Assembly: GCA_031255975.1 (NCBI GenBank) | Contig: JAIRRM010000136.1 | Span: 1-17,848 of the forward strand | Reading direction: 5' to 3' | Length of the DNA stretch: 17,848 nt | DNA from: Propionibacteriaceae bacterium | GTDB taxonomy: Bacteria; Actinomycetota; Actinomycetes; Propionibacteriales; Propionibacteriaceae | Shown here: positions 4,060 through 11,706 of the stretch, one piece after another | Layout: the number at the start of each line of letters is the position of its first letter | Numbering within the stretch: the stretch's first letter is position 1 | Notes under the pieces: model-generated | The model's input: only the letters and a program-made list of their open reading frames with translations | The model's database searches: none | What the model was told of the DNA's origin: nothing | Position numbers and translations under genes: made by a program

Positions 4060-5412
4060 ATGGGAAAACTTTTCGGCACCGACGGCATCCGTGGCGAAGC
4101 CAATCGGCACCCGATGGACGCCATGACGGCATTCGCGCTCGGGCAGGCGCTCACGCATGTCATCCACCCGAAGCATCGCCCGCCCGTGGTCGTCATCGGT
4201 AAAGACACCCGTATCTCCGGCTACATGCTGGAATCCGCGCTGGAAGCGGGCATCACTTCGATGGGTGGCATCGTACACATGCTCGGGGTGTTGCCGACTC
4301 CAGGTATCGCGTACATCACCCAGTCGATGCGCGCCGACGCCGGATTCGTGGTCTCAGCCAGCCACAACCCGTACCAGGACAACGGCATCAAGGTTTTCGG
4401 CCCCAATGGTTTCAAGCTCTCCGACGCGCAAGAGGACGAAATCGAGCGGTTGATGCTCTCCGGCGAGTTGGCGTCCCTCACCCCACCTGCCGCCGAGTTG
4501 GGGCGGGCCTACCGGCTCGACGATGTACTGGGCCGCTACATCGTGTTTCTGAAGAACTCGTTCCCGCGCTCGCTCAGATTGGACGGCGTAAAGATCGCCA
4601 TGGACGTGGCCAACGGCGCGTCGTACCGGGTGGCCCCAGCGGTGTACCGCGAGTTGGGCGCTGATGTGTACGTCATTAACGACGAACCAAACGGCTACAA
4701 CATCAACGACAATGCGGGCGCGATGCACCCCGAAGCGCTGGCCAAGGTGGTGCGCGAGATCGGTGCCCAGGTGGGGTTTGCGTACGACGGCGATGCCGAT
4801 CGACTCATCGCGGTGGATGAGTCGGGAGAGGTGGTCAGCGGTGACCAGATTCTGCTTATCAACGCGCTGGAACTTAAACGTCAAGGACGGCTCACAAACA
4901 ACGCCGTCGTCTCCACCGTGATGAGCAACCTCGGGTTCCGCGTTGCCTGCGACGAGGCGGGCATCGTCAACCATGCCGCACCGGTTGGTGACCGCTATGT
5001 GTTGGAGTTGATGAAAAAGGTGGGGGCCGTCATCGGCGGCGAGGACTCCGGACACACCATCTTCCTGCGCCGTCACACCACCGGCGACGGCATCCTCAGC
5101 AGTCTGCAACTCATCACCTGCATGTTGAAAACCGGGAAACCGCTCTCTGAGTTGAAACAGGCGATGCGGGTGTACCCGCAGGCCCTCGTCAACGTGGACG
5201 TGGCCCGCAAACCCGAGTTGGAAAATGTACCCGAGGTGATGGCCGCCATCGCCGCTGCCGAAGGCGAATTGGGCACACACGGACGGGTGTTGGTGCGCTA
5301 CTCCGGCACGCAAAACCTCTGCCGCGTGATGGTGGAAGGCCCCACGATCACCGAAACCGAATCCCACGCCGAGGCCATCGCCGACGCGGTGCGACTGACC
5401 ATCGGAGTTTAG
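4060..5412 (+). CDS. glmM: Phosphoglucosamine mutase
   Basis: Interconverts glucosamine-6-phosphate and glucosamine-1-phosphate in the cytoplasm, on the route to UDP-GlcNAc and peptidoglycan. The 450-residue length is normal. Signatures in order: FGTDGIRG (5-12); catalytic phosphoserine loop SASHNP (99-104, Ser101); metal loop DGDADR (243-248); sugar-binding GEDSGH (327-332); phosphate-binding loop RYSGT (413-417). The last loop continues QNLCRVMVEG rather than the more common RPSGTE form. Wording such as IGKDTRISGYMLESALEAG resembles proteobacterial GlmM more than typical actinobacterial GlmM, so transfer is possible. A leaderless -10 box supports the ATG. It could act with the beta-helix protein encoded upstream. 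Confidence 0.95.
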   Translation: MGKLFGTDGIRGEANRHPMDAMTAFALGQALTHVIHPKHRPPVVVIGKDTRISGYMLESALEAGITSMGGIVHMLGVLPTPGIAYITQSMRADAGFVVSASHNPYQDNGIKVFGPNGFKLSDAQEDEIERLMLSGELASLTPPAAELGRAYRLDDVLGRYIVFLKNSFPRSLRLDGVKIAMDVANGASYRVAPAVYRELGADVYVINDEPNGYNINDNAGAMHPEALAKVVREIGAQVGFAYDGDADRLIAVDESGEVVSGDQILLINALELKRQGRLTNNAVVSTVMSNLGFRVACDEAGIVNHAAPVGDRYVLELMKKVGAVIGGEDSGHTIFLRRHTTGDGILSSLQLITCMLKTGKPLSELKQAMRVYPQALVNVDVARKPELENVPEVMAAIAAAEGELGTHGRVLVRYSGTQNLCRVMVEGPTITETESHAEAIADAVRLTIGV

Positions 5413-5705
5413 CGACCCATTCCCGCAGCGCGGTGGCGCAGAACGTATCTCCCGTTGGGTTGCAGCAATAGCGCGAGCCACCAGGCCGAAAGACCGATCC
5501 GAGTGGCCTCACATCGTGGTTACCTTGTAGCGCGTCACGTTACGCGCACCCAGGCAGTACCTTGCCGATACCGCCTACCACTCTCATCGAATGCGGCACG
5601 GCCACGCGCGGTAAGCCAGGCGGCGTTCTCGGCCTGCACTAGCAAAGCCTCCAGCGCTTCGCGCAGTTCGTCGGAGCTGGCGTTACCCATGGGAGATACT
5701 GAAGT
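5413..5705. other. Gap between glmM and the met promoter
   Basis: No recognisable gene lies on the plus strand. The only credible coding signal is a 51-codon minus-strand ORF (5535-5690), listed separately. I see no convincing terminator after glmM and no tRNA. Confidence 0.5.
5535..5690 (-). CDS. Small ORF, possible truncated HEPN/DUF86-like protein
   Basis: A 51-codon frame from ATG 5690. The first 40 residues look like real protein: an amphipathic helix (DELREALEALLVQAENAAWL) followed by TARGRAAFDES. The helix plus RGRxAF stretch recalls the N-terminus of HEPN/HepT-like (DUF86) proteins, but the rest of that domain, including RxxxxH, is missing. The tail YRQGTAWVRVT looks unrelated. There is no Shine-Dalgarno sequence. 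It would be divergent from the metQNI promoter. It may be a decayed fragment; function unknown. Confidence 0.3.
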   Translation of the reverse strand: MGNASSDELREALEALLVQAENAAWLTARGRAAFDESGRRYRQGTAWVRVT

Positions 5706-5735
5706 TTGGGAATACTCGCGGTAACGGGGTATTCT
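5706..5735 (+). promoter_or_regulatory. Promoter of the metQNI operon with inverted repeat
   Basis: The -35 TTGGGA (5706-5711) and -10 TATTCT (5730-5735) are 18 nt apart, predicting a transcript start near 5742, about 30 nt before the leader ORF. GAATAC (5710-5715) and GTATTC (5729-5734) form a perfect inverted repeat with a 13-nt spacer that overlaps both promoter elements, where a repressor would act. The regulator is unknown. Confidence 0.6.
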
Positions 5736-5771
5736 CTCTGTTCATCCAATGGAGGTTCACCCGGAGGGCTC

Positions 5772-5858
5772 ATGAACTACGACGCTCACACCTGCTTCGG
5801 CATGATGTGCTGCCGTTTCATGATGATGCCCACCGCGCGAGCGTCCGCTGGCTGCTAG
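5772..5858 (+). CDS. Met/Cys-rich leader peptide upstream of metQNI
   Basis: A 28-codon ORF starting at ATG 5772, with GGAGG at 5763-5767 a few bases before it. The core is HTCFGMMCCRFMMMP. In 28 residues there are six methionines including the start, and four cysteines, counting adjacent Met-Met, Cys-Cys and Met-Met-Met; these are normally rare codons. The stop (5856-5858) is followed 22 nt later by an intrinsic terminator and then the methionine importer genes. This is the architecture of a ribosome-mediated attenuator: ribosomes slowed at Met or Cys codons would change RNA folding and permit read-through. It is not the HVDL-type leader seen before many actinobacterial sulfur genes. The regulatory role is inferred. 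Confidence 0.75.
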   Translation: MNYDAHTCFGMMCCRFMMMPTARASAGC

Positions 5859-5879
5859 CTGTCTAGCCAAGCAAACGGT

Positions 5880-5917
5880 AACCGCCCGCGCGAGTAAATC
5901 GCCGGGCGGTTTTGTTT
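5880..5917 (+). terminator. Intrinsic terminator/attenuator between leader ORF and metQ
   Basis: ACCGCCCG (5881-5888) pairs perfectly with CGGGCGGT (5903-5910). An extra GCG/CGC pairing is possible in the loop, and A5880 can pair with T5911. The run TTTTGTTT (5910-5917) follows directly. Its place inside the transcribed leader, before metQ, makes it a regulatory rather than an end-of-gene terminator. Confidence 0.8.
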
Positions 5918-5983
5918 GTCTTGACAGTTGGCAGCGAGCGCACCCACGGAAACGTAAAAGAACGCAGAGAAAGAGGAACCATC

Positions 5984-6931
5984 GTGAACAGCAAGCCAAG
6001 GAGCTTCGCAGCCAGGGTCATCGCGCTGGCCGTCGCCACCATCTTCGGTCTTGGAACCCTGGTCGCGTGCTCGTCCAACGACCCGAATGGCACCCCCACC
6101 GGTTCACCCAACGACGGCGACAACACCAAGGGCACCGCAAGCAACCCCGTCAGAATCGGCGTGGTCGGCGCTACCGAGAAATACTGGGACACCCTGACAG
6201 ACGAACTCGAAACCGAGGGCATCTACGTAGAGATCGTGGATTTCGCCGAATACCCGCTGCCTAATCCGGCGCTGACCGCGGGCGATATCGATCTGAACCA
6301 GTTCCAGCACATCGTGTACCTGGCCGCGTACATCGCCAACACCGGCAACGAACTGGCCCCCATCGGCTCCACCGCCATCTACCCGCTGATGCTGCATTCA
6401 CAACGTTACGACTCCGTGGCTGAAATCCCCGCAGGTGCCGAAATCGCCGTCCCGAACGACCCGTCCAACCTGTCGCGGGCGCTGCTGGTGCTACAGTCCG
6501 CCGGGCTCATCAAACTACGAGATGGCGGCTCCATCTTCTCCACCGATCTTGACATAATCGAGGCAGAATCGCGGGTACGGGTACGCCCGGTAGCCGCCGA
6601 CCTGCTGCCAGCCACACTGGCCGACCTGGCCGGTGCCGTGATGAACAACGACTGGGTGGTCAAAGCTGGGATGGACATGAACGCCGCTATCGCCCAAGAC
6701 GACCCAAACGATCCGGCGGCGGCAGCCTACGTGAACATCTGGGCCTCCCGCACCGAAGACGCTGACAACGCGCTCTATCTGCGGATCGTCGCGGCGTACC
6801 AAAACAGCACGCAGGTCATCACAGAACTGCAAGAGGTTTCTGGAGGTGCTGCGGTGATCGTGAAGATTCCCCAAGCCGAGTTGCAAACGGCGCTTGATAA
6901 GACGATTGCCGACACCAAGGCGAATGCGTAA
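5984..6931 (+). CDS. metQ: Methionine ABC transporter substrate-binding lipoprotein (NlpA family)
   Basis: Binds methionine outside the membrane and delivers it to MetI. A 315-residue protein. Start GTG 5984 is chosen because AGAGGA (5972-5977) precedes it at 6 nt and a proper lipoprotein signal follows: basic start, hydrophobic core (about residues 10-24), then LVAC lipobox. An upstream TTG at 5912 falls in the terminator U-tract and is rejected. The mature domain has the NlpA pattern: VRIGVVGATEKYW, IDLNQFQHIVYL (E. coli MetQ has a similar FQH stretch) and AVPNDPSNLSRALLVLQSAG followed by LIKLRDG. A Gly/Ser/Thr/Asn-rich linker follows the lipid-modified Cys. First structural gene of the operon, downstream of the attenuator. 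Confidence 0.95.
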   Translation: MNSKPRSFAARVIALAVATIFGLGTLVACSSNDPNGTPTGSPNDGDNTKGTASNPVRIGVVGATEKYWDTLTDELETEGIYVEIVDFAEYPLPNPALTAGDIDLNQFQHIVYLAAYIANTGNELAPIGSTAIYPLMLHSQRYDSVAEIPAGAEIAVPNDPSNLSRALLVLQSAGLIKLRDGGSIFSTDLDIIEAESRVRVRPVAADLLPATLADLAGAVMNNDWVVKAGMDMNAAIAQDDPNDPAAAAYVNIWASRTEDADNALYLRIVAAYQNSTQVITELQEVSGGAAVIVKIPQAELQTALDKTIADTKANA

Positions 6932-6934
6932 ACG

Positions 6935-7984
6935 ATGAATGACCCCACGACACTCGTCGAACTTCGCGACGTCACCAAGACGTTCGAGGTGACCCCCACC
7001 AGGGAAAACCCGGCGAGCACCCTCACGGTGCTCGACCGGGTTAGCCTGGAGGTTCGTACCGGCGAAATCTTCGGCCTCATCGGTTATTCAGGAGCTGGGA
7101 AATCCACCCTGGTACGACTCATCAACGCGCTCACCCCGCTCACCAGCGGTTCGGTGACGGTGGACGGCGTGGAGGTCAGCACCCTCAAAGAACGCGGACT
7201 GCGAGAACTGCGCCGTGACATCGGCATGATTTTCCAACAGTTCAACCTGTTCAACTCCCGCACCGTAGCCGGGAACGTGGCGTATCCGCTAACCATCGCC
7301 GGGACGCCGAAATCCGAACGGGATGCTCGGGTGGCGGAACTGCTCAACTTCGTGGGGTTGGCCGACAAAGCGCATACGTATCCGGATCAACTCTCCGGTG
7401 GGCAGAAGCAGCGGGTGGGCATCGCCCGGGCGCTTGCCACCCGTCCCAAGTTGTTACTCGCCGACGAGGCGACAAGCGCGCTCGACCCGGAGACCACCCA
7501 GGAGGTATTGGCGCTACTACGCCGCGTGAACACCGAACTGGGCACCACCATCGTGGTGATAACACACGAAATGGCGGTGATCCGCGGCATCGCGCATCGG
7601 GTGGCGGTGCTGGATGAAGGGCGCATCGTAGAGACCGGCGAGGTGTATGACGTGTTCGCCAAGCCACAACACCCGGTGACGGCTCGATTCGTCGCCACGG
7701 TTATCGAACCGCCGCCCTCTGGCGAAACCTTGGCGGCGCTCAAAACGGCGCATCCGAACGCGACACTGGTAGCGCTTCGCTTCGATGAAGACCGGGTGAA
7801 TCAGGCCGCGGTGTATCGATGCTTTTTCGAGGCCGGTGTCGCTTTCGAGTTGGTGGCCGGTGGTATTGAGGCGATTCAAGGACGGCACTTCGCGCAGTTG
7901 ACGTTGGCGCTGGATGGGCCGGATGCCGCCGTACGCGACGCCCTCGCGCAGGTGTCGGAACTTGTGAAGGCGGAGGTGCTCTAA
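6935..7984 (+). CDS. metN: Methionine ABC transporter ATP-binding protein with NIL domain
   Basis: Hydrolyses ATP to power methionine import through MetI. A 349-residue protein. Walker A is GYSGAGKST (50-58), signature LSGGQ (153-157), Walker B LLLADEAT (173-180) and switch His H211. Residues about 265-349 form the C-terminal NIL (ACT-like) domain that binds methionine and inhibits transport in characterised MetN proteins, so the importer probably has feedback control on top of the proposed attenuation. It starts 3 nt after the metQ stop, and its stop shares one base with the metI start (TAATG), so the genes are co-translated. An internal extension in the first 30 residues (TPTRENPAST) is slightly unusual. 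Confidence 0.96.
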   Translation: MNDPTTLVELRDVTKTFEVTPTRENPASTLTVLDRVSLEVRTGEIFGLIGYSGAGKSTLVRLINALTPLTSGSVTVDGVEVSTLKERGLRELRRDIGMIFQQFNLFNSRTVAGNVAYPLTIAGTPKSERDARVAELLNFVGLADKAHTYPDQLSGGQKQRVGIARALATRPKLLLADEATSALDPETTQEVLALLRRVNTELGTTIVVITHEMAVIRGIAHRVAVLDEGRIVETGEVYDVFAKPQHPVTARFVATVIEPPPSGETLAALKTAHPNATLVALRFDEDRVNQAAVYRCFFEAGVAFELVAGGIEAIQGRHFAQLTLALDGPDAAVRDALAQVSELVKAEVL

Positions 7985-8679
7985 TGCTTGATGGACTGTG
8001 TGGCTGGTGGGGGCGCACCCGCCTTTGCGAACTGGTGGATCGCGGCTATCTCGCCGAAGCCATCTTCGAGACGCTGTATATGGTGGCGATCGCGCTCGGC
8101 GTGGGTATCGTCATCGGGCTCATCGTGGGCCTGGGCCTCTACACCACTCGCAAAGGGGGCCTGTACGCGAACCGGGTGATGTACGCGGTACTGAATATCA
8201 TCGTGAACATCTTCCGCCCCATCCCGTTTGTGATCTTCATCGGCGCGGTGCAGCCGTTGGCGCGCGTCGTCACCGGAACTGGCATCGGCAACCCGGCCAT
8301 CATCTTCGGGCTGTCTATCGCCGCTGGATTCTTCGTGTCGCGCATCGTGGAACAGAACCTGTTCTCGGTCGATCCGGGTGTGGTGGAGGCGGCGCGCGCG
8401 ATGGGGGCGTCAAGACCGCGAATCGTGTTCGGAGTGCTGATCCCCGAAGCTCTCGGCCCGCTCATCCTCGGACTGACGTTCTCGTTCGTCTCCGTGGTGG
8501 ACGCCTCTGCCATCGCCGGGGTGCTAGGCGGCGGCGGTCTTGGCAACTTCTCGCTGAGTTACGGCTTCCGCCAATTCGACACTCTGGTCACCTGGGTAAC
8601 GGTGGTCATCATCATCGTCATCGTGCAACTGGCGCAGCTACTCGGCAATTGGGTGGCCCGGCGTGTCATGCGCCGTTGA
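7984..8679 (+). CDS. metI: Methionine ABC transporter permease
   Basis: Forms the membrane channel of the MetNIQ importer. A 231-residue protein with about five membrane segments (residues roughly 25-52, 66-92, 104-120, 148-180 and 200-222). The cytoplasmic EAA coupling loop, EAARAMGASRPRIVFGVLIP (135-154), contacts MetN. RPIPFVIFIGAV and GVLGGGGLGNF are typical of this family. The ATG overlaps the metN stop by one base. Last gene of the operon; I see no clear terminator in the 79 bp before the next start. Confidence 0.95.
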   Translation: MLDGLCGWWGRTRLCELVDRGYLAEAIFETLYMVAIALGVGIVIGLIVGLGLYTTRKGGLYANRVMYAVLNIIVNIFRPIPFVIFIGAVQPLARVVTGTGIGNPAIIFGLSIAAGFFVSRIVEQNLFSVDPGVVEAARAMGASRPRIVFGVLIPEALGPLILGLTFSFVSVVDASAIAGVLGGGGLGNFSLSYGFRQFDTLVTWVTVVIIIVIVQLAQLLGNWVARRVMRR

Positions 8680-8746
8680 TGGAAGATCGACCGGCTACGA
8701 ACCACCCCATGCGGTGCGCACGAAGTGGGTGGCGGCAACGACCGAC

Positions 8747-8752
8747 TACCCT
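8747..8752 (+). promoter_or_regulatory. -10 box of the thioesterase gene, leaderless arrangement
   Basis: TACCCT is followed by six bases and then ATG 8759, with no Shine-Dalgarno sequence. The gene may therefore have its own promoter rather than depend on metI read-through. Confidence 0.5.
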
Positions 8753-8758
8753 GAACGT

Positions 8759-9217
8759 ATGAAATCCATCCAGGAGCGCTATCCGGAGCCGTATACGCAC
8801 TGCTTCGGGTGCGGCACGCACAACCAGGCGGGCTGGCACATCCAGACGTACTACGTGGACGGCGTTTACGTGGGCCGCCATCGAGTGCCACCGGAGTACA
8901 GCGGCGGCTGGGCGGATTCCATGTACGGTGGGGCCATCGCCGCCCTGATTGACTGCCATACCGCAGCGGCCGCCGCCGACGCCAAAGGCCGCGAACTCGG
9001 GCTCACCGCAGCCGATCCGCTGCCCCGCTTCGTCACCGCGACTATCACAGTGGATTATCTGGCACCCACTCCAGCCGGAGTTGAGGTGAACCTCAAGGCG
9101 CGTGTCACCAGCATTGCTGGACGCAAGGTACATGTCAGTTGTGAGTTGTTCCCAGCCGGTTCCGCCACTCCGACCGCGCGCGGCGAGGTGCTGATGATTC
9201 AGGTACGGGAGCCTTGA
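8759..9217 (+). CDS. PaaI-like hotdog-fold thioesterase
   Basis: A 152-residue single-domain protein, probably a cytoplasmic acyl-CoA thioesterase; the substrate is unknown. The N-terminus has HCFGCGTHN, the cysteine-containing entry motif common in small actinobacterial hotdog proteins. YGGAIAALIDCHTAAA forms the long hotdog helix and VTATITVDYLAPTP a core strand pair. ATG 8759 is preferred over the longer frame beginning at 8663, which would overlap the end of metI with non-conserved residues, and the leaderless -10 box fits it. It converges on purT. Nothing ties it to methionine transport except position. Confidence 0.8.
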   Translation: MKSIQERYPEPYTHCFGCGTHNQAGWHIQTYYVDGVYVGRHRVPPEYSGGWADSMYGGAIAALIDCHTAAAAADAKGRELGLTAADPLPRFVTATITVDYLAPTPAGVEVNLKARVTSIAGRKVHVSCELFPAGSATPTARGEVLMIQVREP

Positions 9218-11155: not shown

Positions 11156-11706
11156 CTAGTGTTTTGGTTGTGGGTCGTTGATGGTGTTGCGGGTGTGTTG
11201 TTGTTCTGGGGTGGTTTGGGCTGGGATGGTTTGGGTGATGCCGTTGATGTTGATGGTTGCTGAGCGTAGTGAGTGTGTGATGTTGCGGATTGTTCAGTTG
11301 GTGCGTTATTGGAGAGTTCTGGCGATGGCGAGGGCTGCGAAAACGATGGTGAGGTGGGCTTCGATAGCGTCACGGGTTCTGACGAACAGGGGTCTGGCCG
11401 CGCGATCAGTTTTGGAGATGCGGAAGGATTGCTCGATGTGCCATAGGCCGTGATAGTGAGCGAGGATTTCACTGGCGGGGGCTATGGCACCGGGAATGTT
11501 GGTGACGTATCCTTTCAGCCCGGCGAGCATTCGTGCCCGATTCAAAGCGGCTGTATCAAGGCTGAATCCTTTCGTGCTGGCTTTCACGAACCGGGGTTTA
11601 CGGGCAGGTTTTCACCGTTGACGACGCGCGTTGCCCGGTTCTCTTGTTGACTCAGAGTCCGGTTATCGTGGATGAATCTCTTGGCTGAATACTGCCAGAT
11701 AGCCCG
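11156..11706 (-). pseudogene. Decayed IS transposase (IS4/IS1634-like DDE), C-terminal part
   Basis: Remnant of a DDE transposase. From 11706 one frame reads IWQYSAKRFIHDNRTLSQQ and on to ENRATRVVNGEN; near 11600-11615 the homology changes frame to ARKPRFVKASTKGF, then GLKGYVTNI and the conserved block HYHGLWHIEQSFRISKTD followed by RPLFVRTRDAIEAHL. After ARTLQ there are two in-frame stops (11306-11308 and 11294-11296), yet the frame still resembles transposase (SLRSATININGITQTIPAQT) to a stop at 11156-11158. So there is at least one frameshift, two stops and a missing N-terminal half. The block with E in IEQSF is the usual third catalytic region. It cannot transpose by itself. Confidence 0.8.

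Follow-up and report, generated by a model that had tools for sequence, protein, structure and literature searches.

A leader peptide rich in methionine and cysteine codons ahead of the methionine importer operon metQNI, a probable transcription attenuator in Propionibacteriaceae

Repressors, SAM riboswitches or T-boxes are the controls described for methionine importers. The classical attenuators of trp, leu, ilv and his operons combine a leader ORF, repeated codons for the amino acid of the operon, competing hairpins and an intrinsic terminator. The region upstream of metQNI in a Propionibacteriaceae bacterium raises the question whether methionine import can be gated by such a translated leader, and which amino acids would be read. 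The window, that is the whole stretch of 17,848 nucleotides analysed here, belongs to a 1.6-Mb draft genome (G000) of 212 contigs and 88.6% completeness, with metagenome assemblies titled 'Propionibacteriaceae bacterium' as the nearest named relatives by MetQ. The features discussed are the following.

5706-5735, plus strand: putative weak promoter, TTGGGA (5706-5711), 18-nt spacer, TATTCT (5730-5735); matches the consensus at 8 of 12 bases, as read by eye
5763-5767, plus strand: Shine-Dalgarno (SD) sequence of the leader ORF, GGAGG, 4 nt 5′ of the ATG; scored 5/5
5772-5858, plus strand: leader peptide ORF MNYDAHTCFGMMCCRFMMMPTARASAGC, 28 codons, then a TAG stop
5802-5813, plus strand: control codons Met-Met-Cys-Cys (MMCC), read from the sequence
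5820-5828, plus strand: control codons Met-Met-Met (MMM), read from the sequence
5832-5895, plus strand: predicted antiterminator hairpin, by folding; 5834-5843 pairs with 5883-5892
5880-5922, plus strand: intrinsic terminator, stem of 5′ arm AACCGCCCG (5880-5888) and 3′ arm CGGGCGGTT (5903-5911), then the T-rich tract TTGTTTGTCTT; by terminator scan, folding and relatives
5984-6931, plus strand: metQ, substrate-binding lipoprotein, GTG start; Pfam Lipoprotein_9
6935-7984, plus strand: metN, ATPase with NIL domain; Pfam ABC_tran and NIL
7984-8679, plus strand: metI, permease; Pfam BPD_transp_1

None of 4227 Rfam families matched the window at the gathering score, be it a SAM riboswitch, a T-box or another described RNA family. 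Leader ORF, terminator and metQ-metN-metI follow one another in this order, as the earlier note had claimed. The promoter which that note had set in front of them holds less well, as it is weak, is missed by a scan of 5300-6400 requiring 9 of 12 consensus bases, which gave no site, and lies in a stretch poorly conserved in G006, the closest relative. An inverted repeat over the putative promoter, GAATAC-N13-GTATTC (5710-5734), was considered as an operator and dropped because the repeat is not conserved in G006.

The Met/Cys-packed 28-codon ORF behind GGAGG proved real. With 7 Met/Cys in 10 codons it ranks first among the short ORFs that follow an SD within the 700 nt 5′ of metQ, while 1000 dinucleotide shuffles of these 700 nt reached a maximum of 5, and this three times; the codon run exceeds chance. 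It is accordingly very improbable that the ORF arose by chance, with the terminator ending transcripts of the upstream phosphosugar-mutase gene (4060-5412) and a metQ promoter further down. Intergenic terminators are common, and the promoter before the leader is neither convincing nor conserved, but the Met/Cys enrichment lies far above shuffles and recurs in frame across genera, and the promoter scan also gave no site between terminator and metQ.

G006, which belongs to the genus of the window, carries the leader MNRAAHTRLRAVCCCCFMMMPAARASAGC at the same place. Between the Met run and the 5′ arm of the terminator, stop codon included, the DNA of the two is nearly invariant, the exception being 3 nt inserted behind the stop. 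Variation is found upstream of the leader and in the N-terminal part of its peptide, and the ORF lengths differ by one codon, in frame. The counterpart of MMCC is CCCC in G006, MMCCC in G217, MMCC in G218 and MMCS in G215, while MMM is kept in G006 and absent in the latter three, the leader peptides of which share 28% (G217), 32% (G218) and 22% (G215) identity with that of the window. All five peptides share a central Cys and the C-terminal Arg, and four of the five possess MM. When 198 genomes of the family were searched with the Met/Cys core as a DNA pattern, only the window and G006 matched exactly, with 11 other rows showing one or two mismatches.

A survey of this family (f1, with g1 the genus of the window; f and g labels are family and genus codes) shows how far the leader extends. 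A MetQ-like match at E ≤ 1e-20 is present in 102 of the 198 genomes, and 48 loci were fetched, 46 non-window matches with E ≤ 1e-50 and two weaker ones, in 47 of which metQ is the first gene. The 47 loci scanned are these 48 minus L189 (N-I-Q-Q order) and L192 (metQ at the contig end), plus the window, and include short upstream stretches in L150 (353 nt), L187 (442 nt) and L191 (326 nt). Of the 47, 30 contain a short ORF behind an SD in which a stretch of 10 codons holds 4 or more Met/Cys; 27 reach 5 or more and 17 reach 6 or more, as compared with 3, 1 and 0 on the opposite strand of the same loci and 16, 2 and 0 in 940 shuffles; species within one genus are not independent in these counts, with leaders in 9/9 loci of g13 and 5/5 of g4. 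The conservation of Met/Cys codons in orthologues with drift of the rest, proposed as a check in the earlier note, is thus borne out by 30 of 47 family loci over low backgrounds, and by further families.

The 17 loci below the threshold of 4 are those of G215, G197, G026, G061, G010, G210, G027, G202, G132, G167, G120, G163, G141, G203, G169, G121 and G003. G215 still shows MMC, and G163, G167 and G169 (L176, L172 and L186) have leader candidates 5′ of metQ with MM near RRHIDMMR or a similar motif, which resembles the RRHVDL type of leader peptide at sulfur genes of Streptomyces. The 12 leaders aligned from g13 and g4 (14 without L184 and L185) show no change at M18, M19, R27, M28 and G30 and almost none at the last Cys; the N-terminal H7, A11 and A15 are invariant as well. 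N-I-Q loci of the own family were also considered as leader carriers and judged unconvincing, as 6 of 20 reached at least 4 Met/Cys without SD filter, with 0/10 from g34; L310, one of the 20, sits at a contig edge and hence was outside the test.

Terminator scan and codon counts were performed on a set of 48 leaders, 32 of the family and 16 of family f23, from which L149 and L153, doubtful despite reaching the threshold, were removed by eye and to which L148, L172, L176 and L186, with a score of 3, were added by eye. Many of these leaders end with Arg (CGA)-Met, a few residues, Cys and the stop. The window leader keeps the CGA and the terminal GGC TGC TAG with GCG following CGA, and so ends in RASAGC without Arg-Met, as opposed to RMRLGC in G218. 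TGT accounts for 67 of 168 Cys codons in the leaders and for 12 of 64 in the corresponding metQNI matches (p 0.003); the share of CGA among Arg codons is 41 of 227 versus 102 of 1974. Met and Cys amount to 13.6% and 11.2% of the leaders versus 1.2% and 0.2%, shares that are partly circular because the leaders were chosen for Met/Cys; the synonymous codon choice is free of that circularity, though related species are not independent.

Beyond the family, a scan of 85 loci (five of family f3 and 80 named) gave three matches, L066, L067 and L069, which add nothing since they are the same loci as those of G006, G218 and G217. The 82 others stayed below 4, namely a fourth Propionibacteriaceae assembly, L086 (identical with G215), and 81 loci mostly titled as genera that presumably belong to Microbacteriaceae and Nocardioidaceae. 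From a class-wide draw of 394 genomes, 121 with a MetQ match at E ≤ 1e-25, 40 stronger matches were scanned without SD filter. The leader was found in 16/16 loci of f23, for example MSRASSDTARIVTTATGRGMSMCPMRMRRCR, these loci representing 16 of the 18 f23 genomes having a match, and in 0/24 of the others, including three Q-N-I loci of f22. Among 20 weaker matches, all of N-I-Q order and picked from a longer list, 11/12 of f22, for example MTTTSSRTLATEAMMTPGARCMCRMCAF, 4/7 of f20 and 0/1 of f21 carry a leader. As the f22 peptides are very close to metL of Streptomyces lividans (MSTTSDRTPATEATTTPGARCMCRRMCAF; PMC8079986), f22 is probably the Streptomyces family.

In S. lividans TK24, the leader peptide metL has been reported in front of metNIQ (PMC8079986, Table 4), and the kind of leader is therefore not wholly new. 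The earlier note, which knew of no described peptide attenuator for MetNIQ that reads both sulfur amino acids, needs correction on this point: a leader peptide before this importer is published. The literature searched, with most subscription papers beyond reach, gave no instance of Met and Cys codons acting together. Within that same literature, metL was the only Met leader found before a methionine importer. In the accessible part of the metL paper it is Met and Thr, and not Cys, that are given as enriched, and no typical Rho-independent terminator was found (PMC8079986). As far as that part describes it, metL (GARCMCRRMCAF) equals the window leader in being a short Met/Cys-codon peptide directly 5′ of a methionine importer operon, and many leaders of the present group in having Arg-Met followed by Cys near the C-terminus. 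It differs in its leaderless transcript, the absence of a typical terminator and metN as first gene, whereas the window combines an SD, an intrinsic terminator and metQ as first gene, and displays the runs MMCC and MMM as well as Arg-Ala where metL has its C-terminal Arg-Met. The odds lean slightly towards a widespread actinobacterial leader class in at least four families (f1, f20, f22 and f23), which would read Met and Cys codons jointly and gate methionine import by both supplies, and in which the termination step would have been exchanged between lineages, with an intrinsic terminator in the nearest relatives of the window and something else elsewhere.

Clusters of Met and Cys bind soft metals, and the peptide itself could be the functional product, a metal-binding (for example copper) microprotein ahead of the importer. 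Related peptides in many species would agree with this view. On the other hand, sequence and spacing drift strongly, as judged by eye, and ten leader peptides gave no meaningful match in Pfam and NCBIfam, the best one being Pfam Gallidermin with E 0.015, below its cut-off. That the peptides precede methionine importers is no independent evidence, because the loci were fetched by MetQ. The C-terminal DNA pattern CGAATGNNCNGCRCCTGCTGA, searched for with at most one mismatch, in turn occurs in 19 of the 198 family genomes, at one place each, and 16 of the 19 places (15 exact, one with a mismatch) are directly 5′ of metQ matches; the remaining three, in G065, G028 and G155, have one mismatch each. 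All 15 exact matches therefore lie in front of metQ, which argues against a metal-binding role.

The cysteine synthesis operon of the same genome also fits the codon reading better. On contig C104 of G000, an SD-preceded leader ORF, MIRIARAAGCCVACCACL (L320, 6337-6393, minus strand), with five Cys and no internal Met, precedes cysK- and cysE-like genes, as read from the translations and a PF00291 match; no clear terminator was seen by eye at this leader. The cysK-like gene of G006 has a Cys-rich candidate leader with a TTG start and two internal Met, and the cysK-region stretches fetched from G217 and G218 contain no Cys-rich leader at threshold, so that a difference between leaders with Cys only and leaders with Met plus Cys has one clear case behind it. 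With these observations, the metal-binding microprotein appears highly unlikely. With respect to sulfur metabolism, MetE (PF01717) was detected in 0/4 of G000, G006, G217 and G218, which are incomplete genomes (the control was positive in 10/14), while the homocysteine methyltransferase domain PF02574, the Cys/Met-metabolism PLP enzymes PF01053 (in G006 one end fragment above the cut-off plus two weak matches) and the CysK-type enzymes PF00291 were present in 4/4.

The codon reading requires an output step, for which the terminator is the candidate. The terminator hairpin of the window has a predicted energy of about -23.9 kcal/mol. Taken alone it is not beyond chance, as the scan of 5300-6400 gave 2 sites versus 0.8 expected in shuffles; its weight comes from its position and its presence in relatives. 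A strict scan is positive in 6 of the 48 leaders and convincing in four, those of the window, G006, G217 and G218, of which G217 and G218 belong to a different genus than the window and likewise carry the leader followed by the terminator. G158 presents a further candidate. The terminator is thus conserved among the closest relatives of the window, while the majority of the remaining leaders lack it; in these the output step must either be of another kind or have been overlooked.

The 5′ arm of the predicted antiterminator (5834-5843) is located inside the ORF, just 3′ of the Met run, and its partner (5883-5892) overlaps the 5′ arm of the terminator. Folding of 5829-5902 yields a hairpin of -29.6 kcal/mol, equalled in stability by 2 of 200 shuffles; the same hairpin is predicted for G006, where 61 of 200 shuffles are as stable. 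With the whole ORF included, the RNA preceding the 3′ arm of the terminator is matched by 57 of 200 shuffles in the window and 16 of 200 in G006, and the complete leader including the terminator beats 200 of 200 (z -5.4). In a ribosome-masked folding model of the RNA preceding the 3′ arm, the predicted holding of the terminator 5′ arm is 0.55, 0.35 and 0.27 at codons 19-21 of the window, where the ribosome leaves the Met run, and 0.60, 0.34 and 0.09 at codons 20-22 of G006; in G218 it is non-monotonic, down to 0.25 at codon 20 and up at codons 21-23, with 0.85 at codon 22. In the complete RNA of the window and G006 the terminator is predicted with 0.93-0.99 at every ribosome position. As the terminator wins at equilibrium, the switch would have to be kinetic. 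Among 300 shuffles each of the sequence from control codons to terminator, an equal or larger switch occurred in 36% (window), 18% (G006), 28% (G218), 21% (G217) and 1% (G158); the antiterminator is plausible as a modelled structure, mostly not above shuffles and weakly supported.

The locus is probably a ribosome-mediated transcription attenuator of metQNI that senses the supply of Met and Cys, a reading with good support for the Met/Cys leader peptide and only moderate support for the hairpin switch. The transcript would begin 5′ of 5772 and a ribosome would translate the leader. With ample charged tRNA-Met and tRNA-Cys, the ribosome would pass the Met/Cys codons to the stop and block the pairing of 5832-5845, so that the 5′ arm of the terminator (5880-5888) would be free, the terminator would form and RNA polymerase would stop near 5912-5922. 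If Met or Cys is short, the ribosome would stall at MMCC or MMM and 5834-5843 would pair with 5883-5892 before the 3′ arm of the terminator is made, a kinetic lead which would let transcription proceed into metQNI. An objection is that shortage of Met is expected to slow initiation on the leader itself as well.

An unlikely, though not negligible, alternative retains the leader as real and as controlling metQNI, with stalling acting on Rho access, mRNA stability or metQ translation, and with the terminator setting basal termination only. It draws on the related leaders, which mostly lack a T-run terminator, and on the predicted hairpin switch, which mostly does not rise above shuffles. Published systems point in the same direction, as S. 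lividans metL is without a typical terminator (PMC8079986) and, in the accessible text on the Cys leaders of actinobacteria, the Mycobacterium regions are likewise described without conserved terminator hairpins (PMC1262725). Against it stand the window, G006, G217 and G218, in which a strong stem and a T-rich tract are placed where attenuation needs them, approximately 15-60 nt after the leader stop.

Compared with the classical attenuators, the attenuator proposed for metQNI shares the leader ORF with cognate codons and the intrinsic terminator, and would also share the competing hairpins, as far as these are predicted. It differs as the control amino acid Met is joined with Cys, the target is an importer and the 5′ arm of the predicted antiterminator is positioned inside the ORF, 3′ of the control codons. 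Poly-Cys leaderless short ORFs of mycobacteria have reportedly been described by Canestrari and colleagues in 2020. Cys leader peptides have been described for the cys operons of Mycobacterium and Propionibacterium acnes and for cbs of Bifidobacterium longum (Seliverstov et al., 2005; PMC1262725). As far as the accessible text goes, these resemble the window leader as short ORFs that carry Cys codon runs and precede sulfur genes, and differ in containing control codons for Cys only and in their target genes; according to the same survey, methionine operons showed no conserved RNA structures in front of them (PMC1262725).

A leader with Met codons raises a direct question, because initiation is itself affected by a shortage of Met. 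Having Cys codons in addition may answer this initiation problem, or may tie the import of Met to the supply of Cys. The set of leaders found makes the question testable in cultured species, with the four leaders possessing an intrinsic terminator as the simplest form to test.

Some minor observations concern the surroundings and the relatives. An ORF on the minus strand of the window (11306-11587) looks like what we presume to be a transposase fragment. A thioesterase-like gene (Pfam 4HBT; 8663-9217, plus strand) overlaps the 3′ end of metI and could be a further gene of the met operon. In g13 and g4 (for example L170 and L171), a possible hairpin CCTGC...GCAGG around the stop codon of the leader was seen by eye, and in g13 its inner part changes in pairs, again as judged by eye; this hairpin could be the switch where the terminator is absent.
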